Assembly: GCF_902832885.1 (NCBI RefSeq)
Contig: NZ_CADFDK010000021.1
Span: 22,363 to 86,362 of the forward strand
DNA from: Burkholderia seminalis DSM 23518
GTDB taxonomy: Bacteria; Pseudomonadota; Gammaproteobacteria; Burkholderiales; Burkholderiaceae
Direction of reading: 5' to 3'
Length of the DNA: 64,000 nucleotides
The position numbers and the translations under genes are program-made. Positions 37,993-57,848 of this stretch are shown one piece after another (position 1 is the first letter of the stretch; every line of letters begins with the position of its first letter). The notes under the pieces were generated by a model. It was not told the DNA's origin. It was given only the letters and a program-made list of their open reading frames with translations, and ran no database searches.

Positions 37993-40110
37993 TCACCCCA
38001 ACAAGTCACCGAGACCGGCGCGGCCGGTCGGCCGTTGGCCGGCACCCGGTTCGCGGGGAGTCGACGCACCGTGAACCTCGCCGGTGTCGCCGTCCACGAC
38101 TTCACCCGTCGCCAGCACAACCAGATTCGAAGTGGCCGGGTCCGATTCAGCGCCGGTCGACGTGGCCGCAACGTCATCCGCACGGGACGCCGCAGCTGCC
38201 GGCATTTTGTTCGCGGCAGACGAGCCTGCGGATGGCACCGATTGCTCCGCGGACGAAGACGTCGCAGTCGCGTCGGTTGGCGCGGGTGACGGGGATGGTG
38301 CAGTTTCTGCCGGCGCCGCGGAACCGGGTGCGGGCGGCGACAGCGCCGCGTGGCCACCGGGTGCGGCGTGTGCAGTAAGCCACGTGTCAAAAGTCCGACG
38401 GGGAATGAACGGTGTGGCAATTTCGGGCCGATGCGTATATTTGTATCTCACCCGTGCGACGGGGTAATCGCTGGGTGTAACCAGATAGCCCTCCATGTCG
38501 GGCAGACGTAAGATCTCGGAAGAGAGGACAAGATCCCGAAGGTTACGGCGCGCGAAGACACTCATACCGTCGCGACGCTCATCGATCCCGAGATTGAGAC
38601 TTTCCTCTTTCTCGTCCAGATCAGCCTGCCCGATCGCGTTGGCCAACGCCTTGGCGGCGTCACCGTCGGTCACGCGCAACAGGAGCTTGGTCTGACATCC
38701 GGAGATGATCGTGCGCGCAAGGTGCTCGCCATAGATCAAGAAGAGTAGCGAGAAATCCTGGATGCCGATCACAAAGCAACCGCCAAACTTGCGAATGTTC
38801 GTCACGGCGAGCTTCATGATCTCCAGTTTCTGCAGCGTAGGGAGCTCGTCGTAGAAATACCAGAGGCGTTCGCGATGAATCGGCTTGAGCGCAAGAAGCG
38901 AGCGGATTGCGATGTCACACCAGAGGCTGATTAGCGGAAGTAGGGCGGTTTTCTGCTCTTCGTTGACGGTAATGAACAGCCAGGAATCGTCGTCTTCGTC
39001 CTCATTCTGAATCCACTCGCGGATCGAAAACGGTTCACCTTCGTCATGCAGGTAGCGGAAGCAATCAAGCTGGTTCTGCACGGTCATCTTGAGGCTCATG
39101 CCCGTACGCTCAGTGATCGGATCAACGTAAGTGGCGGCAGACTCGTTCGCGAGGATGGCGTGTAATTCGTCCAGATTGCTGTGGGCGATGGCCTTGTACA
39201 GCGCGGCGTTGGTTCGCTTGTTGTCGTCACCGAGCGCACGGACCGCGCCCTTGAAGACCATGCGCCCGGCGATGGCGAAGAACGGATCCGGAACGTTCGG
39301 CGGAATCGGGATAAGCCCCTCTGCCAGCCCGTCGTAATGGATTTCACCCTGGATTTCGCGCCACACGTTCCAGTTGGGACTGCGCGCATCGAGCGGATTC
39401 AGGATGATGTCCTTGCCTTCCCGAAAAAAGGTAGCCGTGAACTCGCCCGACGGGTCATAGACGATCGCTCGCTTTTTGTTGGCGCGGACCTGCTCCATCA
39501 GCGCGAAAAACTGCTGAGACTTGCCGCTACCCTGGGCACCGGCGAAGAGCGTACCGAGCACTTCGGCCTTCTTGCGCATCGGCACGCCGGCGATGCGGTA
39601 CGGGCTGGCGTCGTCTCGGCTTTCCAGTTCCTTGACCAGTGCTTTCGGTTTGACGAGCCTTGCACCGCGAACCTGCTTCTCGGCGAGTTTTCCGCGACCG
39701 TACTCCATCCAGAACAGGACGGAAAGAAACGTCACGGCTATAGCGGTAAGAACAGCGTACAGGGCGGCATTTCGCGCATAGACGAAAAACTCTTCGGCGG
39801 CATCGTCGGTAAATGACAGCGCGGCGGCTGGCGGCAATTCCGTGTCGTTGCTGCCGAAGTGGAACGAGACGTTCGGATTGGCCATGGGCACGACGGTGAG
39901 GATTTCAGCCTCGACGTGCTTGGCCGCCAAATAGCGCGTTTCGGCCGACGTGACGAAATACAGGTATGCGCCGCCGGCCAGCGCGCCGACGAGAATGCCC
40001 GCGATGACCACCGCCACGACCGCGCTGGTGAGGAGTTTTGCCTGCTGCCACCAGAGGGCGGTTCCCCGAGAAAAAGTCGCAAAACCGTTGGGCGAGCGTT
40101 GATCAGCCAT
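37993..40110 (-). CDS. traD: TraD, coupling protein (VirD4 type)
   Basis: 705 residues from MADQRSPNG. Two N-terminal membrane helices, Walker A GAQGSGKSQQFF near residue 192, YDPSGEFTATFF, Walker B-like WYFYDELPTLQKLE near residue 420, and FVIGIQDFSLLFLIYGE. The C-terminal 110 residues are a low-complexity Ala/Ser/Pro tail. It couples the relaxosome to the secretion channel. Overlaps the end of the RHH gene by eight bases. Confidence 0.96.
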   Translation of the reverse strand: MADQRSPNGFATFSRGTALWWQQAKLLTSAVVAVVIAGILVGALAGGAYLYFVTSAETRYLAAKHVEAEILTVVPMANPNVSFHFGSNDTELPPAAALSFTDDAAEEFFVYARNAALYAVLTAIAVTFLSVLFWMEYGRGKLAEKQVRGARLVKPKALVKELESRDDASPYRIAGVPMRKKAEVLGTLFAGAQGSGKSQQFFALMEQVRANKKRAIVYDPSGEFTATFFREGKDIILNPLDARSPNWNVWREIQGEIHYDGLAEGLIPIPPNVPDPFFAIAGRMVFKGAVRALGDDNKRTNAALYKAIAHSNLDELHAILANESAATYVDPITERTGMSLKMTVQNQLDCFRYLHDEGEPFSIREWIQNEDEDDDSWLFITVNEEQKTALLPLISLWCDIAIRSLLALKPIHRERLWYFYDELPTLQKLEIMKLAVTNIRKFGGCFVIGIQDFSLLFLIYGEHLARTIISGCQTKLLLRVTDGDAAKALANAIGQADLDEKEESLNLGIDERRDGMSVFARRNLRDLVLSSEILRLPDMEGYLVTPSDYPVARVRYKYTHRPEIATPFIPRRTFDTWLTAHAAPGGHAALSPPAPGSAAPAETAPSPSPAPTDATATSSSAEQSVPSAGSSAANKMPAAAASRADDVAATSTGAESDPATSNLVVLATGEVVDGDTGEVHGASTPREPGAGQRPTGRAGLGDLLG

Positions 40111-40519
40111 TGCTCTCTCCCAGCAGTTTCTTGGTGGCGGCCTCGGCACGATCCTGTGCCTGATGTAGGAACTGGATGTTCCTGTCGCTGACGATTGTCG
40201 TCAGCACCTCGCGACAGAGATAGATCGCTCGAACAAGATCGGTTGGAAGCAGATGGGAAGAATTCCCACCGGCATGTGCGGCTTGGCCGTTCGCCGCTTG
40301 TGCGGAAATCGGTATAGCGGAGAGCAGCGCGTTCAGCCGCTTTTCAATCTGTTCGACGTTATCGTTCACGATCCCGCGAACGAGGATTTGACGACAAAAC
40401 TCCGCTACCGGAACGCCAGCCTCGTTTGCCTTTCTGCGATAGAACTCGTTGGTGGGTCTATCGAAACGAAGGGTGATACGCTCGGATTTGCCTTTGCTGG
40501 CGTGACTTGATCGTGGCAT
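40103..40519 (-). CDS. Ribbon-helix-helix relaxosome accessory protein (MobC/TrwA/TraM-like)
   Basis: 138 residues from MPRSSHAS; GAGG stands upstream. The segment SERITLRFDRPTNEFYRRKA with VPVAEFCRQILVRGI is a ribbon-helix-helix fold of the mobilization-accessory kind. The C-terminus is helical. As the first gene next to oriT it should bind repeats there, help the relaxase nick and repress its own promoter. Same operon as traD and traI. Confidence 0.8.
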   Translation of the reverse strand: MPRSSHASKGKSERITLRFDRPTNEFYRRKANEAGVPVAEFCRQILVRGIVNDNVEQIEKRLNALLSAIPISAQAANGQAAHAGGNSSHLLPTDLVRAIYLCREVLTTIVSDRNIQFLHQAQDRAEAATKKLLGESNG

Positions 40520-40597
40520 GTGCGCCTCAGCATACACATCGCCCCATTTTTCCCCGACCGACCTTCTAAAGAGGTCAGCTAATCAAATAGTTACGTC

Positions 40598-40632
40598 ATT
40601 ATAGTGGATGTAAATGGTTTTCGGTGTCTGCC
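40598..40632 (-). promoter_or_regulatory. Putative promoter of the RHH-traD-traI operon
   Basis: On the minus strand a perfect TATAAT lies at 40603-40598, about 80 bases before the RHH start. The expected -35 position falls on the first copy of the TTTCGGTGTCTGNC repeat (40619-40632), so a protein binding that repeat would block the promoter. The -35 itself is poor. Confidence 0.4.
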
Positions 40633-40899
40633 GCGTATGCATCCGGATTCGGTGCGCGATTGACAGCGACTTCTCTTTTATATTCATCGGCTTATCCTAT
40701 CGATAGCGTTTCGGTGTCTGACAATGTGGACTCCGATGTTTCCAAAATGCCCGCCATTTAGACACCTTTTCGTTACGGCGATGGCGAGATCTTCGCAGAC
40801 ATGCGACGTTTGGCTGCCACGTTCCAGCCTTATGCAGCAAGGTATTGCGCGATTTGAGATGTGCTTCGGTGGCAGCGCGTATGCGTTTCGGTGTCTGCC
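40619..40899 (+). repeat. Three direct repeats TTTCGGTGTCTGNC beside oriT
   Basis: Copies at 40619-40632, 40709-40722 and 40886-40899. The last two share a longer context, GCGTTTCGGTGTCTG then (A/C)CA(A/G)TGT. Their place between the RHH gene and the nic region makes them likely binding sites for the accessory protein or the relaxase. Confidence 0.7.
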
Positions 40900-40902
40900 A
40901 GT

Positions 40903-41011
40903 GTAGAGCCTTGCTCAGCAAGGCTCTACACACCCGCAACGGAGTTGCGTGGTGTGTGACCGTCTGGTCGGGGGGTGGGGCTTGCCCCACGGGTCGCCCC
41001 CCCGGACGGAC
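40903..41011 (+). other. Predicted origin of transfer (oriT) with nic site
   Basis: Four structures in a row: a perfect 13-bp inverted repeat (40903-40915 with 40917-40929); the pair CGCAAC/GTTGCG (40935-40940, 40944-40949); directly after it GTGGTGTGT then G; and a GC-rich stem around GTGGGGC TT GCCCCAC (40975-40990). In F, an inverted repeat is likewise followed at once by GTGGGGTGT, cut before the next G; eight of those nine bases match here. The cut is therefore expected between 40957 and 40958 on the strand given. Confidence 0.7.
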
Positions 41012-41309
41012 GGTATCTGGATGGTGATGCCCGGACGGGTCGGGGTATCACCGGTTTTTCAGCAGGCGTCGCGATCGGCATCGCAGCCAGCAAGAGCGAG
41101 GATTTCGTTCCATTGAGGCGTTCGCCTGGTTGAGTCATAGACGCGATTTGCAGGATTTCCTTGGCACGAGGGACGGACGAGAAAAGCAGAAACGGTAGGC
41201 GAGCGTCGATCCGTTCAGCACAGGGAAAAAACGGAATAGGAAGGATGATCGGAGGCAGGGAGTGGGCTGGGAGAAATTCGGAGCGACGAGGGTGGTTATG
41301 CCACGCAGG

Positions 41310-41446
41310 TTTTCCACATATCCACGGGTCCGGACCGACGTCGCGATGCATCAACATCGCAAGAGCGTCGGCCGCGCGCCGTTTTCCACAACGGTGTTGG
41401 TTGTGGGAAACGGGAGAAGCGCGGGGACCAGTGGGTATGTGGGAAA
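41310..41446. other. Cluster of DnaA-box-like sequences, possible oriV
   Basis: TTTTCCACA occurs at 41310-41318 and 41382-41390, and TTTCCCACA on the other strand at 41410-41402 and 41446-41438. The consensus is TT(A/T)TNCACA, so two fit and two have one mismatch. The middle two form an inverted pair. There is no supported gene between 41012 and 42233, and no replication protein gene in the window, so origin function is only a suggestion. Confidence 0.45.
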
Positions 41447-41556
41447 CCTGCCGGCGTGCGCAGATTTCGGTCGTGGATAGATGGGCGCCGAGCAATAGCC
41501 AGAGAGAAAACGCTGTGAGCACGGTTGGTTTGCCGGTTTTCGGCGGGCGCGACTTT

Positions 41557-42115
41557 GCGGCCGCCGAACTGAGACTGCGCAATGCATGCATTGGGCACTG
41601 GAGGGGTGGTCCGCGCGGGGCGGCGCCCGCGGAGGCGGGCGGGTGCCGTCCCGCGCGGCGACAGCTGCACAAGCACGGCGGCGTCGACTAAATGCGCGAG
41701 GCGGTTGAGGCGGCGGCCGCGACGTTGGCGGCCGCCGCGCTCGAGCTGCGCAATGCGTGCATTGCGTCTGGGTGGATGGTCCGCGCCGGGCGGCGGCCGC
41801 GGAATGGCGCGGGCGACGCCCGGCCCGGCGACAGCATGAAAGTTGCGATGCCGGGGCTCGGCGAGCTGGTTGGACGGGCCGGCGGCCGCGACGGTGGCGG
41901 CCGCCGTGCTCGAGCTGCGCAATGCGAGCATTGCGCTCTGGCTAGGTGGTCCGCGCGGGGCGGCGGCCGCGCGAAATCGGGGGTGACGCCCCGCGCGGCG
42001 ACAGCAGGAAAAATGCGGGTGCGCCGGATCAGCGCTCCGAGCGGTTGCGTCGGCGGCAACGACGGTGCCGGCCGCTGCGCGCGAGTCGCGCAGCGGGCAA
42101 TTGCGCCGCGACGGA
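41557..42115. repeat. About 170-bp GC-rich tandem repeat, three copies and a remnant
   Basis: Each unit carries a palindromic core GCAATGCNNGCATTG (starting near 41578, 41749 and 41918), then GGTGGTCCGCGC(C/G)GGGCGGCG, then C(G/C)CGGCGACAGC. The stretch GCGGCCGCGACGNTGGCGG precedes the second and third cores. A fourth, worn copy begins near 42053. The spacing is 171 and 169 bases. Frames crossing it on both strands are repetitive and not credible genes. Confidence 0.85.
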
Positions 42116-42233
42116 TGAGGCGCGGGGCAGCGGTGCGACACCGGGGTATCAGGCCCCAGTCCTTTCCGTTGCGCGGCCGAATTCCGTTACACTTCGCGGC
42201 AAGGGGGAGGGGCAAAATGGAGTGATAGAGGCC

Positions 42234-45066: not shown

Positions 45067-45357
45067 TTATTGCCAAACCGGCGACCACGCACCGGTTGCT
45101 TGGCGAAAAAGGGTGATGCGCTTCGCGGTGCCGTCGATCACGGTTTCGAGCCGCACGGCGCGCGCGTCGTCATCAGGGCGAATCCAGCGATGCAGGACAC
45201 GAATCGAGGCGTCTATGGGGCAACCAAACCAGTGCGCGGCCGTCGCACGCAAGCGGCTTTTCGATTGCCGGATGCCTGCCTGGCGGTGAGCCTCGGGGGG
45301 TGCGGGGGGAACGCCCGCGCGTGTGTGGGTGGTTCGGTCGGGGGTGGTTGCGCTCAC
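45067..45357 (-). CDS. Hypothetical protein sharing its N-terminal leader with the ParB-like protein
   Basis: 96 residues from GTG 45357 (AAGGA upstream). The leader GVPPAPPEAHRQA is identical to part of the ParB-like N-terminus, coming from a 44-bp exact DNA repeat. The rest (HWFGCPIDASIRVLHRWIRP, LETVIDGTAKRITLFRQ) looks like a small strand-rich domain. Confidence 0.65.
   Translation of the reverse strand: MSATTPDRTTHTRAGVPPAPPEAHRQAGIRQSKSRLRATAAHWFGCPIDASIRVLHRWIRPDDDARAVRLETVIDGTAKRITLFRQATGAWSPVWQ
45276..45319. repeat. 44-bp exact direct repeat, copy 1
   Basis: Identical to 48055-48098. Both copies lie inside the first codons of a minus-strand gene (the 96-residue gene and the ParB-like gene) and encode VPPAPPEAHRQA. 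The untranslated sequence ahead of each is also related. Confidence 0.9.
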
Positions 45358-45383
45358 GATTTCGTCCTTTTGTGTCGGGTTGT

Positions 45384-45590
45384 GGATCTGCCATTGGGAG
45401 CCGCCTCGACGCGGGTTTAGCGCGGGCTCGCACGGGTGCAAGGGCGCGCCCGGAGGCCGCATGCGGAGCGCAGGCGTAGCCGAGCACCGAACGGGCGAGG
45501 ACGTGGGCGAAGCGAAGCGCAGCCTTTACCCTTGCGCCCGTGCGAGCCCGCGCTATGCGTCGAAAAGGGGCGGCTCCCAATGGCAGATCC
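45384..45590 (+). ncRNA. Structured repeat family 1, copy A (207-base inverted structure)
   Basis: Outer arms 45384-45405 and 45569-45590 are a perfect 22-bp inverted repeat; inner arms 45420-45444 and 45529-45553 match at 24 of 25. Inside, GCCGCATGCGGAGCGCAG, a mini-hairpin GGC-GTA-GCC, CGAGCACCGAACGGG and GCGAAGCG recur in copy C at 55187-55279 (and more loosely in copy B). Whether it acts as RNA or as DNA, and from which strand, is not known. Confidence 0.55.
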
Positions 45591-45657
45591 ACGCGCTTAA
45601 CCCGGCGCAAAAGGATGGAGCGCAACCACACGGTTTCCCCGGCCGAGCCACCCACAC

Positions 45658-45706
45658 GGCGCGGGGCGGTTCTGCCCCGCGCCCTCTCGGCCGGCATAGC
45701 CGGCCG
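45658..45706. other. Two perfect hairpins between repeat elements
   Basis: GGCGCGGGGC (45658-45667) with 45674-45683, and CGGCCGGC (45688-45695) with 45699-45706. A further stem GCCCGC/GCGGGC follows near 45722-45737. A similar pair of hairpins stands before the second family-2 copy (55355-55405). Confidence 0.7.
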
Positions 45707-45787
45707 CTGTACCGGCAGTTCGCCCGCGAGGAGCGGGCGCGTATCCCGCGAGCAAGCGAAGCGCGCAGCGCCGGGACGGCGCGAAGA

Positions 45788-45882
45788 CGTCAGGGATTGA
45801 AGCCCGTCAGGGGCGAGACTCGCGCAGCGAGGCTCGACGCGCAGCGCGAAAGCCCGGCCCGAAGCGAAGCGGAGGGAGACGC
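45788..45882 (+). ncRNA. Structured repeat family 2, copy 1
   Basis: 95 bases almost identical to 55423-55516. Begins CGTCAGGGATTGAAGCCC. Differences fall in loops: GCCC-GTCA-GGGGC here, GCCC-GAAG-GGGGC there. A second stem pairs 45814-45823 with 45827-45836. Followed by GAAGCGAAGCGGAGGGAGACGC in both. No protein is credible here. Confidence 0.55.
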
Positions 45883-45957
45883 CCGAGCCTCGGAAGGGGA
45901 GCGCCATGGGAGGATAAAAACGACGGTGAGCCTATACGGGAAGAATGGTGAGCATTT

Positions 45958-45995
45958 GCGGGAGTCCCGTCGCAGTGTCGCGCCGAGACTCCCGC
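45958..45995 (-). terminator. Possible terminator of the ParB-like gene
   Basis: Perfect 9-bp arms GCGGGAGTC (45958-45966) and 45987-45995, six bases past the ParB-like stop. The loop is 20 bases and there is no U run, so this would be a weak or factor-dependent terminator, or an RNA-stability stem. Confidence 0.4.
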
Positions 45996-46000
45996 CTCAA

Positions 46001-48139
46001 TCACGCCTCGACCTGCTCGACCTGCTCAACCTGCTCGGTCTGCTCGGTCTGCTCGATGTGCGCGGCGTCGGCTTCATCGGACTGGTCGTCGTCAGCCGAG
46101 TCTTGTTCAGGGTCGTCGTCCTGCTCTCGCCGCAACTGCCAGAGGGTGTCGGTACGGACCTCGGCCAACGCAAGGTGTTCGGGCAACCAACCGGTCCCGG
46201 CCGTGAGGCGCTCGGCTTCGGCGGCGGCATCGGCCTTCTTGAGCTTGGCGAGACGCATGCCCTCTGCGGGAGAAACGGCGGCGGCCACCACGTCGACAAT
46301 ACGTGCCTTCGACACGTGATCGAAGTAGCTGGCGCGGGTCGGCTTCCACTCGTCGGCCATATTCAGGCCGAGCGCGGGAATCAGGCCGTTGATCGCATGT
46401 GGCCGCTCGTCAACGGCGACGCTGTCGAGGCTGGCCGCGACGTACTGCGCGAGGATGAGCATGAGCCGCTCGTCGGTCTGCGCGACGCACCAGTCGAACA
46501 GGGCGGCGCTGTCGTCAGGGATGAGACCGGCCCACGCTGACCGTTGCTCGCTATGGAGGCGGTAAGCGAGATCGTCAGCCAGCTCGGACGCGCCGCGCTC
46601 GACGGTACCGGTCTTGTCGTGCCACTGGATGGAGACCGCACTGGCGGCGGACCCGGCAGCGTATTCGGAGACGAGGAAGCGATGGACGAGTGCAGCGAGT
46701 GCGACGTGCGGCTGGCGCGCAAGCGCCATGCCGATGGCGGCGGTGCGCCGGGCATTCAGTCGCTGCGTGAGCGTAGCGGAATGCGGGCCTTTTTTGATCG
46801 GTGCGGGTGCTGGCGTGGGACTACGCACCGTTGGGCCGTCGCCGTCCGGGTCATGCGAGTCGTCATCCGAGTCATCGTCGGAATAGTTGGCCACCGTGCT
46901 GATCGCCCCCGGTTTCTTGACCCAGCCGCGCAGCACGGAGAGGACACCGCCTTGCTCGATCGTGACGATTGCGCCAGCGCCAGCCATCTGGAACGGGGTG
47001 TAGACGGACAACGATTCCTCGATCTCGGCATAGCGCTGCGACAGGGCGGTTTCTTCGTTACACAGACGCTCGTAGGTTTCTTCGTCGATGTCGTCTGCCT
47101 CCTGTTGTTCGGTGATGGCGGCAACGCGTGCGTCGATCGCGTCCATCTCCTGCTGCTGCTCAATGGCCGCGGGGACATCGGTAGGTGCGATCTTCGCGAA
47201 CCGGGAACGAATGTTGTAGTCGATGGAGATCATCGGTTCGACCCACTCCCACCCTTCGTTAAGCACGTCCTCGGCAACGGTGCGAAGCTGCTCCAAGGCG
47301 ACACGCTCCATCAACGCCTGATCGGAGTACCATGCCGTGCCGGTGTCCGAGAACAGATCGCGACGGACGACACCTCCAGCGGCCTCGAATGCATCGATGC
47401 CGACATAGAGTGCGACGCGGCTGTTCTGAAAGTCGCGCTCCCCCGCGACAAGTTTGCGACGAATCGCCGAAGCGGGACGTTCGTGCGGCTGCGCGTCGAA
47501 CCACGCGCGCTCTTGTTCGTCATGACTGTCGGAGAGAGCGAGGGCCATCATTTGGTCTGCACCAATCTCGTCGTCGCGGAACAACTCGACCAGCTTAGGG
47601 GAGACGCGGGCGAGCTTCAGGCGACGATGCACGGTCTGCTCGCTGACGCCATAGATTTCCGCGACATCGGCCACAGTGCGGCCCGCGTCGACCAGCACAC
47701 GATAGGCGTCGCATGCGTCGGCCGGATGCATCGGTTCGCGCATTTCGTTTTCGACCGTCGACATCAGCACGGCGTCCTCCACCGACGCGATGAGACAGCG
47801 CACCGGATGATCGGCCGGGATGTAATCGTGTTCCATCAGGTAGACGAGCGCGAGGCGACGGCGCTCGCCCGCCGCGACGCCGTACGTCTGAGCTTTCTTG
47901 GGGCTAACCTTCATAGCGTGGACGACGAGGTTTTGCAGCAGCCCGCCGGTGTGCCAAATGTTCAGGGCGAGTTCCTTGATGCCCGTGCGCGGCACGCGCC
48001 GCACGTTGTAGGGGGATGCGACGAGCCGTTTGAGGGGAATGTCTCGCACGTCGTCTGCCTGGCGGTGAGCCTCGGGGGGTGCGGGGGGAACGCCCGCGTC
48101 GTTGGCGAGGGCCGGGATTTCGGTGGTCACTGCGTTCAT
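46001..48139 (-). CDS. Large ParB/Spo0J-family protein
   Basis: 712 residues from MNAVTTEIPA (GGAGG five bases upstream). The ParB N-domain is clear: IPLKRLVASPYNVRR, LALNIWHTGGLLQNLVVHA, AAGERRRLALVYLM, and a helix-turn-helix TVADVAEIYGVSEQTVHRRL. The remaining 450 residues are helical and variable, with a C-terminus of EQTEQ and VEQ repeats. Normal ParB is about 300 residues. No ParA gene is next to it, so it may act in regulation or partition with a distant partner. The repeat family 1 copy B stands directly upstream. Confidence 0.9.
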   Translation of the reverse strand: MNAVTTEIPALANDAGVPPAPPEAHRQADDVRDIPLKRLVASPYNVRRVPRTGIKELALNIWHTGGLLQNLVVHAMKVSPKKAQTYGVAAGERRRLALVYLMEHDYIPADHPVRCLIASVEDAVLMSTVENEMREPMHPADACDAYRVLVDAGRTVADVAEIYGVSEQTVHRRLKLARVSPKLVELFRDDEIGADQMMALALSDSHDEQERAWFDAQPHERPASAIRRKLVAGERDFQNSRVALYVGIDAFEAAGGVVRRDLFSDTGTAWYSDQALMERVALEQLRTVAEDVLNEGWEWVEPMISIDYNIRSRFAKIAPTDVPAAIEQQQEMDAIDARVAAITEQQEADDIDEETYERLCNEETALSQRYAEIEESLSVYTPFQMAGAGAIVTIEQGGVLSVLRGWVKKPGAISTVANYSDDDSDDDSHDPDGDGPTVRSPTPAPAPIKKGPHSATLTQRLNARRTAAIGMALARQPHVALAALVHRFLVSEYAAGSAASAVSIQWHDKTGTVERGASELADDLAYRLHSEQRSAWAGLIPDDSAALFDWCVAQTDERLMLILAQYVAASLDSVAVDERPHAINGLIPALGLNMADEWKPTRASYFDHVSKARIVDVVAAAVSPAEGMRLAKLKKADAAAEAERLTAGTGWLPEHLALAEVRTDTLWQLRREQDDDPEQDSADDDQSDEADAAHIEQTEQTEQVEQVEQVEA
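48055..48098. repeat. 44-bp exact direct repeat, copy 2
   Basis: Partner of 45276-45319, in the ParB-like gene. Suggests that a gene start with its leader was copied from one locus to the other. Confidence 0.9.
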
Positions 48140-48170
48140 ATAGCCTCCATTGCGTCGGGGTGAAAAATTG

Positions 48171-48356
48171 CTGCCATTGGGAGCCGCCTCGACGCATGGG
48201 AAGCGCTTGCGGGGAGGCGTTGCTGGGGCGCGGGCAAGGCCGCAGCGGTGCGAACCCGCAGGGGGCGCACCGACCGGGCGCAGCACGCGGCGTAGCGCAC
48301 CCTTGCAACGCCGGGACGCAGCGCTATGCGTCGGGATGAGGCGGCCCCGATGGCAG
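48171..48356 (+). ncRNA. Structured repeat family 1, copy B
   Basis: Outer arms CTGCCATTGGGAGCCGCC (48171 on) and the inverted 48339-48356; inner GGCGTTGC (48216-48223) with GCAACGCC (48305-48312). The core has CCC-GCA-GGG in place of the GGC-GTA-GCC hairpin of copy A, and GCGCACCGACCGGG in place of CGAGCACCGAACGGG. It lies in the 5' region of the ParB-like gene. Confidence 0.5.
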
Positions 48357-48847
48357 GCGATTCGCCGACAGCTGGAGGTGGAACGCAGGGGCGGTTACCG
48401 AAAGCCGGACGTCGCCGGCGCCGGGCCGCTCGCACGGCCCGAGCGCGAACTCCGCGCACGCGTGCGTGCGCGGCTGGCGGGGCGGCCAGCGCCGGGGCCG
48501 GACGCCGGCGGCGGCCGAGCCCCAGGAGCGGACAGCCCGTGTACTCGGCGCGTGAAAGCGGGCAGCTTGCATGCCGGGCGTAGCCAGGCGGGCAAGGTGC
48601 CGCGCGCCGGCTGGCGAAGGGGAACGGTGTGCACTCGCATCGAGGCGCTGGGGCCTGCAATCGCCGCCCACAGTGGCCGCTCGATGCGGCCGCGGTGGGC
48701 TCGCCGGGGACTGGGTGGAACGTAGCGTGGTACATCGCCAGGCGCCCGTGTTCCATCGGCCGCCCGGGCCCGCAGGGCCGGGCGAGTCGTGGAACATGGT
48801 TGAGTGGTGATCGTCGCCGGCACCAGGCGCGCGCCGGCGGACGCGCG
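48357..48847. other. GC-rich stretch without a supported gene
   Basis: Several frames cross it on both strands but all are Arg/Ala/Pro-rich shadows. It contains many short palindromes (for example around 48455-48475 and 48765-48785). I see no repeat-family core. It may extend the structured region of copy B. Confidence 0.4.
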
Positions 48848-49036
48848 TCACCTCGCGGTGGCACCGCGGCCGAGAACAACACCGGCGTCGAAGGCGGCCG
48901 CGAGCGCGTCGCGGATGCACCACACCGCGCAATCGTGAAAGTCCAGCCGATCGCTATGGCGTGTTTCGAGCGTGTCGATATGCAGATGCACGCGGGCGAT
49001 TGCGAAAAGCAACATTTCGATTTCGTTTTTCGTCAT
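48848..49036 (-). CDS. Small hypothetical protein
   Basis: 62 residues from MTKNEIEMLLFAIARVHLHI; ends CAVWCIRDALAAAFDAGVVL. GAGG upstream. Helical, with one Cys pair. Part of a run of small genes leading from the methyltransferase. Confidence 0.6.
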   Translation of the reverse strand: MTKNEIEMLLFAIARVHLHIDTLETRHSDRLDFHDCAVWCIRDALAAAFDAGVVLGRGATAR

Positions 49037-49088
49037 GGGAGCCTCGTATACCGCCGGCTGCCGGCAACGCCGGCGCCGGCGGATGAAT

Positions 49089-49256
49089 TTATCGCCGGGC
49101 GGACTGGCCGGCCTGGAACGCTTCCAGCATCGCGTAGCGCAGCGAAGCGGGCAGGACTTCGATTTCCGTGTCGGAGTCCCATACGTGCGAGATCTCCTCG
49201 CCGAAGGCGTTTGCCGCGATCGCGGCCAAAATTGCGTCAATCAAATATCGGGGCAT
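49089..49256 (-). CDS. Small hypothetical protein
   Basis: 55 residues, MPRYLIDAILAAIAANAFGE then EVLPASLRYAMLEAFQAGQS. GGAGAAC upstream. Helical; no family recognised. Confidence 0.6.
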   Translation of the reverse strand: MPRYLIDAILAAIAANAFGEEISHVWDSDTEIEVLPASLRYAMLEAFQAGQSARR

Positions 49257-49305
49257 GTCGTTCTCCAGGTGCGCCGGCCGCGGCGAGCGGCCGGCGCTCG
49301 TGTGG

Positions 49306-49812
49306 TCAGGAAAGCTGCACTGCGCCGCAGTTTTCGGCCAGGCAGAAGGCGAAATACCAGTTGCGGTAAAGCTCGGCGAGCATGGGATCGTAGTCGGCGT
49401 CGATCGCACCAATGAACCGGCGGAAATCGTCGGCCAACTTGGCGGAGATCCGCGACCCAATCGTTCCCGATGTGATCGAGAAATCGATCAGTTCCTTAAA
49501 TGGGCCGTCCTTTGCTGCGATCGCGCCGTTCGTATGGCAGGCTCGCGCGGCGCCAATCGAGATCGCCGGGTAATCGGCGAGCTCGGCCAGGCGCTCGCGG
49601 AAAATGTCGTGCATCACGTAGGTGCCGACGCTGAATTCGAACGAATTCCGGTAGTGGTAGATACGTGCCATGTCCAGGTCGCTGGCGCGGTGCGGGAACC
49701 GCGGCGCAGCGTCGAGCCGGACACAGAACAGGTCGGCGGCGTCGCCGTTTTCGTTCGTGCGGGGATGGTCAAGCTGCTCAAGACCGGAATAGGCGGAAAC
49801 GATCAGTCGCAT
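49306..49812 (-). CDS. Hypothetical protein
   Basis: 168 residues from MRLIVSAYSGLEQLDHPRTN. Contains FEFSVGTYVMHDIFRERLAE and KDGPFKELIDFSITSGTIGS. No membrane segment or known motif. GAGGACATTCACC lies before the ATG, giving a ribosome site. It follows the methyltransferase by 23 bases. Confidence 0.65.
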   Translation of the reverse strand: MRLIVSAYSGLEQLDHPRTNENGDAADLFCVRLDAAPRFPHRASDLDMARIYHYRNSFEFSVGTYVMHDIFRERLAELADYPAISIGAARACHTNGAIAAKDGPFKELIDFSITSGTIGSRISAKLADDFRRFIGAIDADYDPMLAELYRNWYFAFCLAENCGAVQLS

Positions 49813-49835
49813 GGTGAATGTCCTCTGTTCGGATC

Positions 49836-50477
49836 TTAGGCGGCGGCCTGGGCCGGTGCCGACAGGCGCGACTTGGCGGCCGCGTAGTAGGTGGCGTCCA
49901 GTTCGATGCCGATGTACCGGCGGCCCAGCTCGCGCGCGGCAACACACGTCGAGCCCGACCCGGCGAACGGATCCAGTACGACGTCGCCAGGCTGCGTAAA
50001 GGCGGAAATGAGTGTGCGCAGCGCGGAGACTGGTTTTTCGGTCGGGTGGTGGCGATTGCCGCTGTACGGAAACGGCATGACGTCGGCGATCGGCGCCGCC
50101 GGCGCCGCGGGCCGCCCCTTGGCAAGCAGGTAGGCCGATTCGTGCTGGTACTTCACCAGGCCGGCCTTGGACGCGTAGGACTTCGTGAAGACGAAGTGGC
50201 CGGCCACGCGAAAGCCGGCCGCCTTCCAGGCATCGAAAAACAGGTCGACCTTGTTCCAGCCGTAAAACGAAATGCATACCGCGTCGCGCTTGAGCACGCG
50301 GAACATTTCGGCGAACGCCGGCGCCAGCCAGTCGCCGTTTACGTCGTTCGCGATCGAGCGCCCGCTCCGATCGCGGAAATTGACGAGATAGGGCGGGTCC
50401 GTGACGATGCAGTCGACGGATTCAGGGGCGAGTTTGGGCATGGCGACCAGGCAGTCGCCGTTGTACAAATAGCTCAC
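49836..50477 (-). CDS. Site-specific DNA methyltransferase (N4/N6 type)
   Basis: 213 residues from GTG 50477, chosen because GGAG lies seven bases upstream; an earlier GTG at 50489 has none. Motif IV DPPYLV at residues 27-32 precedes motif I DPFAGSGSTCVAARELGR near the C-terminus, the beta order. VKYQHESAYLLAKGRP fits between. No restriction enzyme gene is adjacent, so it is probably a solitary protective or regulatory methylase. Confidence 0.93.
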   Translation of the reverse strand: MSYLYNGDCLVAMPKLAPESVDCIVTDPPYLVNFRDRSGRSIANDVNGDWLAPAFAEMFRVLKRDAVCISFYGWNKVDLFFDAWKAAGFRVAGHFVFTKSYASKAGLVKYQHESAYLLAKGRPAAPAAPIADVMPFPYSGNRHHPTEKPVSALRTLISAFTQPGDVVLDPFAGSGSTCVAARELGRRYIGIELDATYYAAAKSRLSAPAQAAA

Positions 50478-50499
50478 GGTCAGCTCCACAGAGTTGAGA

Positions 50500-50977
50500 A
50501 GGGGGCAGCCGGAGCGATGCGGCTCGCAAACCGTGCTACCCGGAGCTGGCGAGCGCCCGCCGGAGAATGGGGGGCAAGGGGACCGTGGAATACCGGAGTG
50601 CGCTACGCGCGCGAGGATATGCCGCGAAAGCCCCTTGCAGGAGCAGGGCGCCGTGCGACACTCGTCGCGCACGGCGCAATGATCCGGCCGCCAGGCTACG
50701 GCGGGCGAACGTGGGCTCCGGGTTCAAAGGTCGACTGCAGGGGTTGTGCGAAGGGCTCGGATAGAGAGTGGGCACCGGCCACGCGAGGGGCGTTGCGTCA
50801 CGGACATGAGCGCCGCGGCGGTCGCAGATCGCCGGGCGCGATCGCGATTTCCGTGTCGCGGCCGCGCAGCGGCCGCCGCGCGAATTTGGGAACCGTGGAG
50901 ATGATTCGGCCGGCGGTGCCGGCATCCGAAGAGCGTCAGCTGCTGCGCCTCGAGGCGCCCGACGTCGATGGAGCGAC
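50500..50977. other. GC-rich stretch without a supported gene
   Basis: Contains a 10-bp inverted pair GCGCCGTGCG/CGCACGGCGC (about 50650-50680) and GGCAAGGGG with CCCCTTGC (about 50572-50640), which recall the closing stem of repeat family 1, but the core sequence is missing. The methyltransferase promoter should be in its left end. Confidence 0.4.
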
Positions 50978-51460
50978 CTAGCTCTGGCCGCCTCGTAGGA
51001 ACGCTCCGAGCTGCTGGCGCTGATAGCCGATACCGCCGGTCGTTTCCTGCACGAGCACTCGGCCCGATACATGCCCGAGTTCGACCTGACGCGTAAGCGC
51101 TGCCTCCATCACGCGGCGATAGCTTTGACCGCCGGCGAACAAGACACGATGCGCCGTCGCCGGCCAGGTGCCTTCCATGAACCGATCGAGCTCGCCGAGC
51201 ATCGTCTCGGCCCGGGCCAGGGTCATGAGCTGGTCGTACGGCTCGATGACCAGGCCCGGCTCGATAAATCCATGCAGCGCGGACAGGATCATCACGGCAG
51301 GCGGCGTCTGAGGTTGCACGTTCGCGCGATACGTTCCGTACATCACGCCGTGATACATGTCGATCGCCGGCATGGGGCTCGCAAGCTTCGTCGCCGAACA
51401 CGCCATGACGACCAACGTCGTGGCGTGCTGATTCACGGGAGTCATCGGCGTCTGCATCAT
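50978..51460 (-). CDS. DUF6884-like protein
   Basis: 160 residues. TTLVVMACSATKLASPMPAI with DMYHGVMYGTYR and MILSALHGFIEPGLVIEPYD match the DUF6884 layout (a Cys-x-x-x-K start, A-x-x-x-Y, I-L-S-A-x-x-G-x-x-x-P). This family often sits in phage and plasmid DNA-modification neighbourhoods. Its ATG overlaps the stop of the PP-loop gene, so they are coupled. Confidence 0.75.
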   Translation of the reverse strand: MMQTPMTPVNQHATTLVVMACSATKLASPMPAIDMYHGVMYGTYRANVQPQTPPAVMILSALHGFIEPGLVIEPYDQLMTLARAETMLGELDRFMEGTWPATAHRVLFAGGQSYRRVMEAALTRQVELGHVSGRVLVQETTGGIGYQRQQLGAFLRGGQS

Positions 51461-53262
51461 GCCGCGAACTCAAAGATCGTCTGTGCACCATCCGTCGTGG
51501 CCTTGTGCCCCCAAGCCTGTCGAGCATCGTCGGGCAGTTGGCCGAAGCGCACGCTGCGCGCGGCGAGCTGCTCGACATCGTGCCCGAGATTCAGGCCGAG
51601 CCGGTCTTTGAAGTCGGTGCGACGGGCAACCTCGTCGTGCTTCAGCTGCTGCTTATGAGAGAGTGTGAGCGCACCGTAGTTCAGGTACCACCGATAGCCG
51701 GTCGTGATCCCGCCAGGATGGAAGCCGCGGTCGTGCATCGCAGCCAAGCGATCCGCCTCGAACTGCAGGATCATCTCGGCCGACTCTACGTCGACGTCGA
51801 AGCGCGGGCCGGTGGGGACGCGCCACGTGCTCTTGCCGTCACCCAGATCCAGAATAGTGGGCGCGCACGGCGAGCGCTCGGTCAACGCCTCCATCAGGGG
51901 ATCTCGAAACCCTGTCCACTGATCCGCCGTATCGTCCCACTCGTTGCCCACCTGCAGGAAGAGCGGCTCCGGCATCGGCGCCGGCGGCGCTGGTGCGATC
52001 TCCGGCACCCGATAGCTCACGCCACGCTCGCAGATGTCACGGTAGTCGGCCCAGATCGCGAACGGCGCGGCGAGCCCCTGCAGGGACTGCATCGCGTCGA
52101 CCGCGATCATCATCGGCAGCGGCAAGGTCTGAAACTTCGGCCGCGTCCCGGCACGCCGAGCCCGAATGCGCTCGTCGCGATCGATCGTGAGCATGTACCG
52201 AACGAGTTCCCGGACAGTCGCCGCACCGAACGTGTCAGGCTCCACGCAGACATAGCCTGCGCGGATGGTCCTGCCGACCCAATTGCGGCGCGACCAGTCG
52301 TATCGGATCGCCCGGATAAACCGATTCAGCTGCTGCAGGCCGACCGCGTAGGCATATCTGTCCTGGTCGAAGCGGATCATCTCGGCAAGCGAACGATCAT
52401 CGGCTTGCTGGCAGGTCCAGCAGCCGGTGCGCGCGTCGCAATTTCCGCGGCGCACACGCTTGCCGGCGGACGCCTCTTCGAACGTGAGATCGGACACGAT
52501 CGCGCAGCTGCTGTTGCCCGCATGCGCGTAGATCCGCTTCGTCTCTTCGAAGTCCGTGTAGGTCGGGCGCAGACCGGACGAGACTTCGCCGATAAACTCC
52601 CAGACGTCTTCCGTTGACCAGTCGGCGATGGGGCAGATGGTGAGTTCGCCGTCGCTGTTGCGGACCGGCGTATCGGCACGATCGCCGCGCGCGGTCATCT
52701 TCGCCTTGCGCCGCTCACTTTCGGCGAGGCGGGTGCCGAGCACGACAACCGGCTCGGCGTAGCCGGCCTTCCGTGCCTCACGATACAACTGATTGCGGCC
52801 GACCCGGCTCGGCTCGATCTTCAGCGAGATCGAGCAGTCCGAATTCGTGCCAGCGTAGCTCGGCAAGGCGCGGCCGGTGAGGATCGACAACTGCCAGGAC
52901 GTTGCGAGCGACGGCGCGACAACCAACACGCGAACGTCGATGCCGTGCGCCTGACCGAAGGCGTCCATCTTCGCGAGCTCGCGATGAGCGTGCTCAACCA
53001 TCTCGGGCGACTCGACGAGCGTGTCGGCCGTGATCACGCACACGAGCGGCCGCCCGCCAGCTGCAGCATGCCGGTGGGCCGCCTCGAGCGCGAGGCTCGT
53101 CACGACACCACTATCCTTGCCCGCGCTGAACTGGCAGATGACCATCCGGTTGGCGACGAAGAGCGCTCCCAGCGCGTCGATCGCGCGTTCCACGCGCTGA
53201 CCGAGGGTGGGGCGCACGTCGGCGTCCAGAATCATTTCGACCGTTTGCATAGCGCTAGACAT
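51457..53262 (-). CDS. DndC-like PP-loop protein (PAPS reductase family)
   Basis: 601 residues. PP-loop FSAGKDSG at 45-52, then PLVCVITADTLVESPEMVEH, and a Cys cluster NSSCAIV, GNCDARTGCWTCQQADDRS that matches the iron-sulfur binding region of DndC (usually ...GCWvC). The last 150 residues are unlike DndC. DndC activates the DNA backbone for sulfur insertion in phosphorothioation, but dndB, dndD and dndE are absent here. It could act on DNA or RNA in another reaction. Start could also be the ATG at 53250. Confidence 0.85.
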   Translation of the reverse strand: MSSAMQTVEMILDADVRPTLGQRVERAIDALGALFVANRMVICQFSAGKDSGVVTSLALEAAHRHAAAGGRPLVCVITADTLVESPEMVEHAHRELAKMDAFGQAHGIDVRVLVVAPSLATSWQLSILTGRALPSYAGTNSDCSISLKIEPSRVGRNQLYREARKAGYAEPVVVLGTRLAESERRKAKMTARGDRADTPVRNSDGELTICPIADWSTEDVWEFIGEVSSGLRPTYTDFEETKRIYAHAGNSSCAIVSDLTFEEASAGKRVRRGNCDARTGCWTCQQADDRSLAEMIRFDQDRYAYAVGLQQLNRFIRAIRYDWSRRNWVGRTIRAGYVCVEPDTFGAATVRELVRYMLTIDRDERIRARRAGTRPKFQTLPLPMMIAVDAMQSLQGLAAPFAIWADYRDICERGVSYRVPEIAPAPPAPMPEPLFLQVGNEWDDTADQWTGFRDPLMEALTERSPCAPTILDLGDGKSTWRVPTGPRFDVDVESAEMILQFEADRLAAMHDRGFHPGGITTGYRWYLNYGALTLSHKQQLKHDEVARRTDFKDRLGLNLGHDVEQLAARSVRFGQLPDDARQAWGHKATTDGAQTIFEFAA

Positions 53263-53268
53263 CCGCGG

Positions 53269-53934
53269 TTAGTGGGTGTCGCGACGCACAAACAGTCGTG
53301 CAGCAGTGAGCGACCGGGGAAATCCATGCGCGTCGGTGGTTTCCGCGAGCATCGCGTCGACGTCCATCTGAACGTTGGATCCCGATCGACGGCTTCCGGT
53401 CCGATGCACGCCGAAGATCTCGAGCACCTGCAGCTGGCCGGCGCGGTATGCGTCAACCGTCATCGCCGAGCGAACGTCCGGTGCCAGAAAGTCTGCGTAC
53501 CGCACCGCGAGGCGCTCAATTGCACGAGCTATCGCTTGATCGCTGAACTGCCTCGACAGGATGATGCGGTCCGCAGCGAGGTGAACTGTCAGCCGGCCGG
53601 CCGACGTCAGCATGAAATGCTCGACCCGCTTGACCTTGCCGCCGTCGACTACACGGGTGGCCTGCAGCGGCAACACGAGCCGAGCCACCTGCAGGTCGCG
53701 CGGGCCGTCCGTCCAATCGACCATCAGGTGTGAGCCGCTCCCCGTCTTCGTGACGGCGATCGCAAACGACGTCGTGGGAAATGCCTCCCCGAGAATCGTC
53801 TGTACCAGCTGAGCCGTTTCGATAAGGTTGAGCGTATCCGCGATGACCTTCGGCGGCGTCGCGTCGACGGAGCTGGTGTGGGCACGCACAGAGTCGGTGG
53901 AGCGGGAGAAGTTGTTTCCGGTGGCAAGCATCAT
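53269..53934 (-). CDS. LPD29-like domain protein
   Basis: 221 residues. LIETAQLVQTILGEAFPTTS, FAIAVTKTGSGSHLMVDWTD and GPRDLQVARLVLPLQATRVV match the LPD29 domain of large polyvalent proteins, including the V-x-W-x-D-G-P turn. Such domains travel on plasmids and phages. It lies six bases ahead of the DndC-like gene. Confidence 0.75.
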   Translation of the reverse strand: MMLATGNNFSRSTDSVRAHTSSVDATPPKVIADTLNLIETAQLVQTILGEAFPTTSFAIAVTKTGSGSHLMVDWTDGPRDLQVARLVLPLQATRVVDGGKVKRVEHFMLTSAGRLTVHLAADRIILSRQFSDQAIARAIERLAVRYADFLAPDVRSAMTVDAYRAGQLQVLEIFGVHRTGSRRSGSNVQMDVDAMLAETTDAHGFPRSLTAARLFVRRDTH

Positions 53935-54006
53935 GATCGACCTCGATAGAAATGGAACACGACAACGTTCGGAGAGGCGCCGACGGAGGTCGCCGGCGCT
54001 TCGGGA

Positions 54007-54834
54007 TTAGCTGTTACGGGTGCGCAGCGCGTCGGCGAGAACCCAAAGCGCGCGGTTCAACTTGACGTCTTGGTCGATGCCGGTGACCGCCCGCGTGCGA
54101 GTGCGGCGGCCAGTCGCGGTTCGGCCGGGTTGCCCACCTCGAACCAGGGATTCCTGCACGCGGTTGAAGGTCGTCCACAAGTCGTTACCGGTATCGTCCG
54201 TGCGGCGCGGACGCAGTACCTGCTGCTCCGTGATCGGCGCGGGCGCGGTCGTGGTGTCGTAGCGATAGGCGAGAGCGGCCCGCGCAAAGGCGTGCTGCTC
54301 GTGCTCATCGAGCTGCACTTCAGCCATCCCTTCCTTGACCTCGCGGATCAAGTCGAAGCCGTCGAGTACGTCGTACGCGCCCGCGACGACGTCGTCGACT
54401 ACGTTGCCCTTGTGCGGAACGCGCACGTCGTGCGTCGTGTCGCCGAGCACGAGGCCGTTTTCGCAAACGAAGCGGAAGTAGCCCCCGAGCATCTGATAGC
54501 TACTCGACCCATCGTGGGAATTGAGGAGAATGATTTCCGGCGAGTCGGATTGCGTGACCTGCGTGGCATGGCGCAGTCGCAGCATGTGCTTCGCGTGCTC
54601 GCGCTTGCCGTTGTCGCGCACGCGCGTCTGGCAGACCATGAAGGGCTGGAACCCTTCGTCACGCAGCTTCGTCAGGATGTCGATCGTCGGGATATACGTA
54701 TAACGCTCCGACCGGGAGTTGTGCTTGTCGGCCGCGAAGATCGACGGTGCGACCTGCCGGATTTGGTCGTCATCGAGCGGCGTGCGCGAACGAAGGGTCG
54801 CGGCGGTGCGGCTAAACGTGGTTGCGAGTTTCAT
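54007..54834 (-). CDS. DUF932 protein
   Basis: 275 residues. YTYIPTIDILTKLRDEGFQP, REHAKHMLRLRHATQ and GGYFRFVCENGLVLGDTTHD are the hallmarks of DUF932 (YubP/phage-plasmid-like). These are found near anti-restriction and modification genes. GGAGAAAGCC stands upstream. Probably in one operon with the LPD29-like and DndC-like genes. Confidence 0.92.
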   Translation of the reverse strand: MKLATTFSRTAATLRSRTPLDDDQIRQVAPSIFAADKHNSRSERYTYIPTIDILTKLRDEGFQPFMVCQTRVRDNGKREHAKHMLRLRHATQVTQSDSPEIILLNSHDGSSSYQMLGGYFRFVCENGLVLGDTTHDVRVPHKGNVVDDVVAGAYDVLDGFDLIREVKEGMAEVQLDEHEQHAFARAALAYRYDTTTAPAPITEQQVLRPRRTDDTGNDLWTTFNRVQESLVRGGQPGRTATGRRTRTRAVTGIDQDVKLNRALWVLADALRTRNS

Positions 54835-54888
54835 GGCTTTCTCCGTTGAAAATTCAGTTGCGAGGTAGAGGGATTTCGACGGTGTCCG

Positions 54889-55020
54889 TCAACACCAGAC
54901 GACGTGTTCGTAACCGACAGTGCGTCGGTAGTAGTTGCGTCCATCCCATGGCGTGTACGTGTATTCCATGTACGCACACTGAAGGACTACTATCCAATGG
55001 TGCAGGCGGTTCGTTTCCAT
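54889..55020 (-). CDS. 43-residue protein ahead of the DUF932 gene
   Basis: Starts METNRLHHWIVVLQCAYMEY and ends VGYEHVVWC; rich in Tyr and Trp. ACGGAGGT stands five bases before the ATG, one of the strongest ribosome sites in the window. It would be read just before DUF932 and may be a leader or a small partner. No family recognised. Confidence 0.6.
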   Translation of the reverse strand: METNRLHHWIVVLQCAYMEYTYTPWDGRNYYRRTVGYEHVVWC

Positions 55021-55186
55021 CTAGACCTCCGTTCGAAGGTGGTTTGCATTGCAGGCCGCCCGGGCCCCAAGATTCGGAGCTCCCCTCGTAGGGGTACGTG
55101 CCGGTGATGCCTTGACTTCTGCAGAACTGCTGCCGCCAGTCCCCTGAGTTCGTCGTCCCGCGACTAAAGGAGCCTGCCGGCGGGCG

Positions 55187-55279
55187 TGTTCAAGGGCGGT
55201 CGCAAAGCCGCATGCGGAGCGCAGCCCGAAGGGCGAGCACCGAACGGGTGCCGCGGCCGGCGAAGCGCACCCTTGAATG
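55187..55279 (+). ncRNA. Structured repeat family 1, copy C
   Basis: Closed by TTCAAGGG (55189-55196) and CCCTTGAA (55270-55277). Shares GCCGCATGCGGAGCGCAG, CGAGCACCGAACGGG and GGCGAAGCGCA with copy A. The mini-hairpin is GCCC-GAA-GGGC here. It lies in the gene-free 55021-55740, ahead of family 2 copy 2 in the same order as A and copy 1. Confidence 0.55.
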
Positions 55280-55422
55280 CGAACGACGGTGGGCTACGGT
55301 CGCGTTTGGGACGACGAGCTCGGGGGCTGGCGGTACGCGAAAAGTTGAGACAGCACCGGCTCGCCGCGCGGCGAGCGCCTAATCGGGGCGGAGCCCCGGC
55401 TGTATAGGGGGTGTCGGGTTTG

Positions 55423-55516
55423 CGTCAGGGATTGAAGCCCGAAGGGGGCGAGACTCGCGCGCGAGGCTCGACGCGCAGCGCGAAAGCCCGGCCCGGAGCG
55501 AAGCGGAGGGAGACGC
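55423..55516 (+). ncRNA. Structured repeat family 2, copy 2
   Basis: 94 bases, near-identical to 45788-45882 except for loop changes and a two-base shorter connector (GC instead of GCA). Preceded by hairpins GCTCGCC/GGCGAGC near 55358-55378 and CGGGGC/GCCCCG near 55384-55398. No protein is credible here. Confidence 0.55.
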
Positions 55517-55740
55517 ACAGGGTCTGCCGCTAACCCCGCGCGAATGCGTTGGGAACCGCGCGGACCGGGGCAGAAAGCATGTGGATACGTAAGGCAGCAA
55601 GAGCTAACCGCATGGCGAGCGCCACCTCCCGCGACCCCAAGGCCGCGGGACTGGAGAGGCAGGTCCGCGTGTCGCGGCATCAACGCGACACGCGGTTGCG
55701 CTATGCTTGGGCGTGATCGTGTGAAATCAGAGACGAGTCG

Positions 55741-57690: not shown

Positions 57691-57767
57691 TGGTGGGCCT
57701 GGCTGGACTTGAACCAGCGACCAATCGATTATGAGTCGACTGCTCTAACCGGCTGAGCTACAGGCCC
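57691..57767 (-). tRNA. tRNA-Ile (CAU anticodon, lysidine type)
   Basis: Perfect acceptor stem GGGCCTG/CAGGCCC, D arm with AGCTCAGCCGGTTAGAGCA, anticodon loop CTCATAA, T arm CTGGTTCAAGTCCAG, and encoded CCA. The D, variable and T arms (TTGGTCGCTGGTTCAAGTCC) match the E. coli minor tRNA-Ile2 rather than elongator Met, although the CAU anticodon fits either. Confidence 0.88.
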
Positions 57768-57774
57768 GAATACA

Positions 57775-57848
57775 TGGTCGGAGTGGCAGGATTTGAGCGC
57801 GACCCTTGGTCCCAAACCAGACGCGCTACCAGGCTGCGCTACACTCCG
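57775..57848 (-). tRNA. tRNA-Pro (UGG), possibly decaying
   Basis: Acceptor CGGAGTG/CACTCCG, D arm GTAGCGCAGCCTGGTAGCGC, anticodon loop TTTGGGA and encoded CCA. The T arm (GTCGCGCTCAAATCCTGC) pairs badly and the gene is about three bases short of normal, and one anticodon-stem pair mismatches. It may be functional in reduced form or on its way to a pseudogene. Confidence 0.78.

Follow-up and report, generated by a model that had tools for sequence, protein, structure and literature searches.

What do three GC-rich folded repeats do in a plasmid of Burkholderia seminalis, and in which nucleic acid do they form? This question is raised by a 64,000-nucleotide (nt) stretch of strain DSM 23518 (contig NZ_CADFDK010000021.1, positions 22,363 to 86,362), referred to here as the window, in which the repeats are designated copies A, B and C. 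A preliminary description, made from the sequence alone, had noted a common core order, which is seen on direct reading, and had proposed a selected structure of either RNA or single-stranded DNA. The window is part of a MobF conjugative plasmid, with genes for a TrwC relaxase and TrwB, a presumed origin of transfer (oriT) region and then minus-strand genes, and the plasmid setting that had been supposed for the repeats is borne out. We consider it likely that all three repeats act as promoters in single-stranded DNA, within the leading region of this plasmid, and that they work like the known Frpo and single-strand initiation (ssi) sites but belong to another sequence class.

A Selected Fold and Its Reach

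A covariance model, R1, was built from 29 copies on other plasmids and none from the window. It matches the three repeats as follows:

45382-45592, plus strand: copy A, a folded element with long outer arms (modelled core 45433-45540; R1 E-value 2.3e-15)
48171-48356, plus strand: copy B (modelled core 48217-48311; R1 E-value 1.3e-11)
55165-55302, plus strand: copy C (modelled core 55185-55281; R1 E-value 1.2e-18)

Over the whole 8-Mb genome, R1 finds no match at E ≤ 1 other than A, B and C (150 of 12,854 first-look candidates scored). A fourth match in the window (63182-63252, minus strand, E 0.0021) was weak and absent from the whole-genome list, and it was dropped. With RNA parameters, the folds of A, B and C have z-scores of -11.6, -6.6 and -3.5, each beating all 200 dinucleotide shuffles; with DNA parameters, the values are -9.4, -6.3 and -6.5 (300 mononucleotide shuffles each). 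The outer arms of copy A (45382-45405 and 45569-45592) pair perfectly over 24 nt. The internal mini-hairpins, GGC-GTA-GCC in A, CCC-GCA-GGG in B and GCCC-GAA-GGGC in C, are as first described, and the closing stems have indeed changed on both sides, that of A including one G·T pair.

The 29 non-window copies were aligned with MAFFT, blind to structure (alignment A2), and compared with a set of stems drawn by hand. Covariation in A2 is 0.254, compared with 0.090 ± 0.010 after shuffling and at most 0.078 for slid structures. Pairing is retained in 85.5% of cells (73.3% shuffled), and both sides have changed in 17 pairs (12.1) and 94 cells (39.2). None of 500 shuffles matches these four measures and one matches a fifth, further pair types; these counts are not probabilities, given the kinship of the copies and their use in drawing the stems. 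The support sits in the closing stem and in helix 2, which pairs in only 73% of cells, while the CCG/CGG stem is invariant and therefore uninformative on covariation. The proposal of a selected structure with compensatory changes is thereby upheld in a larger alignment. Two outcomes had been named as speaking against it, a lack of covariation in such an alignment and a coding mobile repeat; both were looked for, and neither was found. Rfam holds no family for the repeats at gathering score in the window, and at E ≤ 10 it returns two tRNAs elsewhere in the window and otherwise sub-threshold matches, none convincing. The remark that they are not recognised as a named family stands to this extent, yet they appear to work like a named kind, Frpo and ssi, with other sequences.

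The family extends well beyond Burkholderia. Among 72,556 plasmid records, blastn at E ≤ 1e-3 matched 263 with A and 224 with C, in hosts including Burkholderia, Pseudomonas, Salmonella, Xanthomonas and uncultured bacteria. Carriers include IncW (pMAK3), PromA (pIPO2) and MobF plasmids, the last in Burkholderia, Oligella, Denitratisoma and Pandoraea. Five copies are present on a Serratia plasmid of IncI-like type, and small plasmids (2.6 and 3.0 kb) also have the element. At R1 E ≤ 1e-4, matches occur in 21 of 150 genomes of the host's taxonomic family, 10 of 299 of its phylum and 16 of 61 of its genus, the window's own genome being counted each time. A copy of the type found before ardA is matched in 3,516 of 5,426 complete E. 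coli genomes, with 6,063 of the 6,138 places on plasmids.

For the counts below, 98 R1 matches were reduced to 94 by leaving out two in record L063 (the same places as in L056), one in L064 (score equal to L060) and the cut-off L050. These gave 84 unique sequences and 56 clusters (3' flank <80% identity), or 54 without the 47-nt palindromes L061 and L047. GNA triloops, considered as possible evidence for DNA, were placed by a greedy hairpin finder in 22 of 54 (P5) and 24 of 50 (P4); this is suggestive but not decisive, and they are not used as an argument.

Strand and Gene Placement

Where oriT lies next to the relaxase operon, the strand opposite the relaxase gene is generally the transferred one, a rule established for F and ColIb. 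In the window, the following features set the presumed direction of transfer:

35092-37986, minus strand: TrwC-type relaxase gene (MobF; PF08751, E 8e-82), which sets the presumed transferred strand
37993-40149, minus strand: TrwB-type coupling protein gene (PF10412, E 8e-122)
40520-42220, no strand assigned: presumed oriT region, by analogy with the Ptw plasmid

An R388-type nic site, sought in the window with up to three mismatches, was not found. Copies A, B and C all lie beyond the relaxase gene on the plus strand, the presumed transferred one. Where a relaxase gene could be seen and assigned clearly to a family, on 13 plasmids, all 30 copies lie on the strand opposite to it; the folded strand is presumably the transferred one. 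Contigs with at least two copies in the genus search keep to one strand without exception (10 of 10 contigs, 31 copies). A Xanthomonas plasmid (L020, 13853-14082) has two back-to-back copies on opposite strands, contrary to this one-strand rule.

The strand preference extends to the fold itself. The modelled plus strand in A2 has 32 G·T pairs versus 14 A·C pairs. In 53 of 54 clusters its fold is more stable than that of the complementary strand (mean difference -6.4 kcal/mol), and in 47 of 54 the advantage exceeds that of the cluster's own shuffles; windows from the flanks have no such bias (89 of 207). The genes concerned in the window are:

45067-45354, minus strand: small gene, putative target of A (start set by eye, GTG after AAAAGGA; no Pfam match)
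46001-48130, minus strand: ParB-like gene, putative target of B (Pfam score below curated cut-offs)
54007-54834, minus strand: DUF932 gene, putative target of C (PF06067, E 2e-55)
53269-53934, minus strand: LPD29-domain gene (PF18847), next after the DUF932 gene in the same direction

Copies A, B and C are upstream of the small gene, the ParB-like gene and the DUF932 gene, respectively. A tally made by hand covered the window and annotated records, 54 copies in all, of which eight were not assessable. In 42 of the other 46, the closest gene on the 5' side lies within 700 nt and points away from the copy, with four contrary (L010 was counted across the record start, and a hypothetical gene overlapping the copy in L009 was passed over). 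In further genomes, 12 of 18 left-hand reading frames have Pfam matches, namely DUF932 (2), DUF3560 (2), DNA methylase (2), ParB, antirestriction, LPD29, CoiA, DUF6876 and DUF6573, and the other six have none.

Promoter-like Hexamers and the -10 Bubble

Each element in the window carries a pair of promoter-like hexamers separated by 16 nt, in copy A on the 3' arm:

45532-45537, plus strand: -35-like TTGCGC of A, 3' arm
45554-45559, plus strand: -10-like TATGCG of A, 3' arm (spacer 16 nt; TA present, sixth base not T)
48303-48308, plus strand: -35-like TTGCAA of B
48325-48330, plus strand: -10-like TATGCG of B (spacer 16 nt)
55273-55278, plus strand: -35-like TTGAAT of C
55295-55300, plus strand: -10-like TACGGT of C (spacer 16 nt)

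Across the family, TA follows TTG by 20-23 nt on the 3' arm in 35 of 54 clusters, compared with 5.6 ± 2.2 in shuffled flanks (maximum of 2,000 shuffles, 14). The fuller TANNNT is present in 24 of 54 (shuffled 0.76 ± 0.85, maximum 5), with a peak at 21 and 22 nt that corresponds to spacers of 15-16. The controls were mononucleotide shuffles of each flank, and the clusters still share ancestry. Examples are TTGGCC-16-TACTGT in B. multivorans as well as TTGCAT-15-TAAGAT and TTGCAT-15-TAACGT in ColIb. A mirrored TA on the 5' arm is found in just four of 54 clusters and is absent in 50. In DNA folds of the 35 clusters with TA, the T has a pairing probability of 0.84, the A of 0.36 and the following base of 0.56, against 0.81-0.94 across the six bases before the T. 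The A of the -10 TA is the base flipped out by sigma when RNA polymerase opens a promoter.

Proposed Mechanism

The family, its covarying fold, the keeping to one strand, the hexamer spacing, the -10 bubble and the gene order are computed results; for this plasmid, we infer which strand is transferred, its use by RNA polymerase, and the timing and shut-off of expression. The plasmid would enter the recipient as a single strand, here the plus strand, and each element would fold. The 3' arm, with its -35-like TTG and -10-like TA, would serve as the non-template strand and the 5' arm as the template. The mismatched -10 bubble would leave the key A unpaired, so that RNA polymerase could open the hairpin. 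Transcription would then proceed leftward into genes templated by the entering strand: from A into the small gene, from B into parB, and from C into the DUF932 gene, the LPD29-domain gene and onward. Once the second strand had been copied, the hairpin would be gone and the promoter with it; as read in the duplex, the hexamers point rightward, away from the target genes. The transcript may in addition serve as a primer for second-strand synthesis, a role reported for Frpo.

Alternative Explanations

Several observations weigh against such promoters. The TATGCG of A and B is a poor -10, the corresponding position in L004 reads TAGGGC, and 19 of 54 clusters lack TA, including IncW-like (L009, L011) and PromA-like (L003:6299, L020) copies. 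The relaxase rule fails in L007, where a DUF3363 protein gene and the copies share a strand, and in L020, which has copies on both strands. The neighbouring gene reads the wrong way at L003:6299, L012:19995, L015:10528 and L020:13980. Part of the plus-strand stability reflects composition, as dinucleotide shuffles give -3.6 of the -6.4 kcal/mol. Finally, the tie to classical Frpo and ssi sites is one of architecture, with no sequence match. The IncW-like and PromA-like copies without a -10 may only prime DNA synthesis, or may use an unrecognised box.

A different account makes the elements initiation sites on the entering single strand, used for priming or by a primosome to begin second-strand synthesis, with no part in driving genes. 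It would accommodate the missing -10 boxes, the copies on plasmids of only 2.6 and 3.0 kb, and the 6299 copy of pIPO2, which faces an oppositely read gene; Frpo is reported to do both jobs (PMC7736820). Priming sites would, however, leave the TTG-N15/16-TANNNT pattern with its -10 bubble unexplained, along with the placement before genes read away from the copies, and we regard them as a possible but rather unlikely explanation for the family. A conventional duplex promoter, whose palindromes would be operators bound by a repressor of the plasmid, is improbable. Its attraction lies in R388, where leading promoters are described as being under ArdK and StbA repression with an overshoot at entry (PMC3937220), and in the IncW copies that precede ArdC. 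Against this, the hexamers in duplex DNA point away from the genes, the -10 is hardly ever mirrored on the 5' arm, and the stem letters vary while pairing persists, unlike a protein binding site.

A structured mRNA leader regulating the downstream genes would likewise fit the close position upstream of gene starts, the strong fold and the covariation. Such an mRNA would, however, be the complement of the modelled strand, whereas both the excess of G·T over A·C pairs and the better fold belong to the modelled strand, the latter being a bias that the flanks lack; the hexamer pattern would also be left unexplained. An RNA regulator is accordingly very improbable, and the earlier alternative of RNA or single-stranded DNA is sharpened in favour of the latter. 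Least credible of all, and scarcely to be expected, is a mobile or repetitive extragenic palindromic (REP)-like repeat spread by copying without function in cis. Near-identical copies do occur within a plasmid (four in L007, two in L004), but the copies of each contig keep to one strand, they precede the same gene families, and old, divergent copies retain the fold. A REP or miniature inverted-repeat transposable element (MITE) was rejected on the same grounds, as the scatter indifferent to strand and gene that it predicts is seen neither in the one-strand contigs nor in the gene tally. Single-stranded-DNA promoters thus remain the preferred explanation for A, B and C.

A Companion Motif and Neighbouring Features

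Copies A and C are each accompanied by a second motif, structured and fixed in strand:

45787-45886, plus strand: companion motif by A, 246 nt 3' of its core
55422-55520, plus strand: companion motif by C, 140 nt 3' of its core

For comparison, Frpo2 was assigned to the stretch of F that precedes ssb and Frpo1 to one about 5 kb further on; the two are 89% alike. BLAST with the two window companions hits F at 11141-11172 and 16529-16560, at the 3' edge of Frpo2 and Frpo1, respectively (E 4e-5). A model, R2, was built from 17 companion copies, including the two F places. It gives 31 matches, with one place counted twice (in L057 and in L062): 22 lie 124-282 nt 3' of a same-strand family copy, two are at Frpo1 and Frpo2, four are 511-1312 nt from a copy, and those in L071 and L019 have none near. 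In the window's own genome, R2 at E ≤ 0.01 finds only the companions of A and C. As a guess, the companion might form another folded part of this module and might serve in priming. In plasmid pBCK56 (L071), at about 23450-23920, the companion and part of the outer arm of A are kept, and R1 finds no core A there.

Other features of the window are less directly connected with the repeats. An exact 44-nt repeat (45276-45319 and 48055-48098) lies near the starts of the small gene behind A and the ParB-like gene behind B, as if promoter and gene start had been duplicated together. A PAPS-reductase-like gene at 51457-53262, distant from DndC, lies within the leading region and is also present in pBMUL01. 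Two minus-strand tRNA genes (Rfam) are found at 57694-57848, just past the leading region.

Novelty and Significance

A plasmid's survival of the defences in a new host hinges on genes expressed early from the strand that enters. As published, anti-defence genes under Frpo raised transfer approximately 225-fold against Cas9 (PMC11541004). If A, B and C act as proposed, the likely switch of ardA, ardC, parB, DUF932 and methylase genes is identified for many plasmids, and early gene expression becomes testable outside F and IncI1. What appears to be new is this class, its reach and the shared companion, the single-strand promoter as a kind being already known. Full-text searches of the openly readable literature found no description of the class. 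Two surveys are described as having used BLAST from known Frpo or ssi sites and 13 candidates. Default megablast with 10 copies from F, ColIb and Serratia reaches none of 23 other family copies, and BLAST surveys may therefore have missed much of this class; the more sensitive blastn task gave 18 hits at 1e-6. The enterobacterial copies may be among the further Frpo candidates of PMC11541004, Supplementary Table 2.

Comparison with Known Plasmid Systems

The closest setting is that of other Burkholderia plasmids. The oriT of Ptw is reported as experimentally mapped to 65.490-66.190 kb, the nic strand not being mapped (PMC4853378). Plasmid pBCK56 comes from strain K56-2, the host of Ptw, and the gene order around oriT agrees between the two records; its R1 copies lie at 72.3 and 77.8 kb on the plus strand, beyond the oriT region and before parB and DUF932. 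The repeats DR1 and DR2 of RA3 were considered as relatives and dropped, as they are of iteron type by the published account. Conserved upstream repeats (CUPs) of IncW plasmids were also considered; no mention of them was found in the published accounts consulted. The IncW copies of pMAK3 resemble the R388 leading promoters PardC and Pssb in lying upstream of ArdC and another leading gene. PardC, Pssb and further leading promoters of R388 are described as repressed by ArdK and StbA and as overshooting upon entry; unlike the behaviour proposed here, this burst is ascribed to lost repression, and single-strand folding is not mentioned in the part of the account consulted (PMC3937220).

Frpo is presented as a single-strand promoter demonstrated in vitro and in vivo (PMC9849209). 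Like Frpo1 and Frpo2, copies of the present family lie in the leading region, their folded strand templates the leading genes, and the hairpin rebuilds a -35 and a -10; the companion motif adjoins both F sites. Neither Frpo1 nor Frpo2 was found with R1, even at E ≤ 1, and BLAST of both against the compared family copies at 1e-4 gave nothing except a 33-nt match in L011 inside the companion motif. Like ssi1-ssi3 of ColIb-P9, the family occupies the leading region on the same strand ahead of leading operons. The Frpo-like ColIb stretches located by BLAST, taken as ssi3-1, were not found by R1. Since no sequence similarity to Frpo1, Frpo2 or ssi1-ssi3 was found, the family is not filed with those sequences and is taken only to work like them.

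R1 does find other places in the same plasmids (E 1e-7 to 2e-5), at 5693-5789 and 9518-9678 in F and at 5406-5502, 9232-9392 and 16869-17029 in ColIb (locus coordinates, minus strand). Four of the five sit 77-91 nt from the next gene, these being antirestriction genes, ardA (77 nt) and a DUF1281 gene; for the fifth, at 5693 in F, the distance to the next annotated gene is about 1 kb. The three ColIb places precede the DUF1281 gene, an antirestriction gene and ardA. This class thus stands beside the classical one in the same leading regions. More broadly, although we hold this with slightly less than even confidence, single-strand promoters may be general equipment of proteobacterial conjugative plasmids. 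They would comprise at least two sequence classes, Frpo/ssi and the present one. The latter would range over plasmids of IncW, PromA and Burkholderia type and also F and IncI1, where it would drive ardA, and its copies lacking a -10 would act as priming sites. Each class would be accompanied on the transferred strand by the common second motif, itself folded, in a two-part module for the first minutes of plasmid life.

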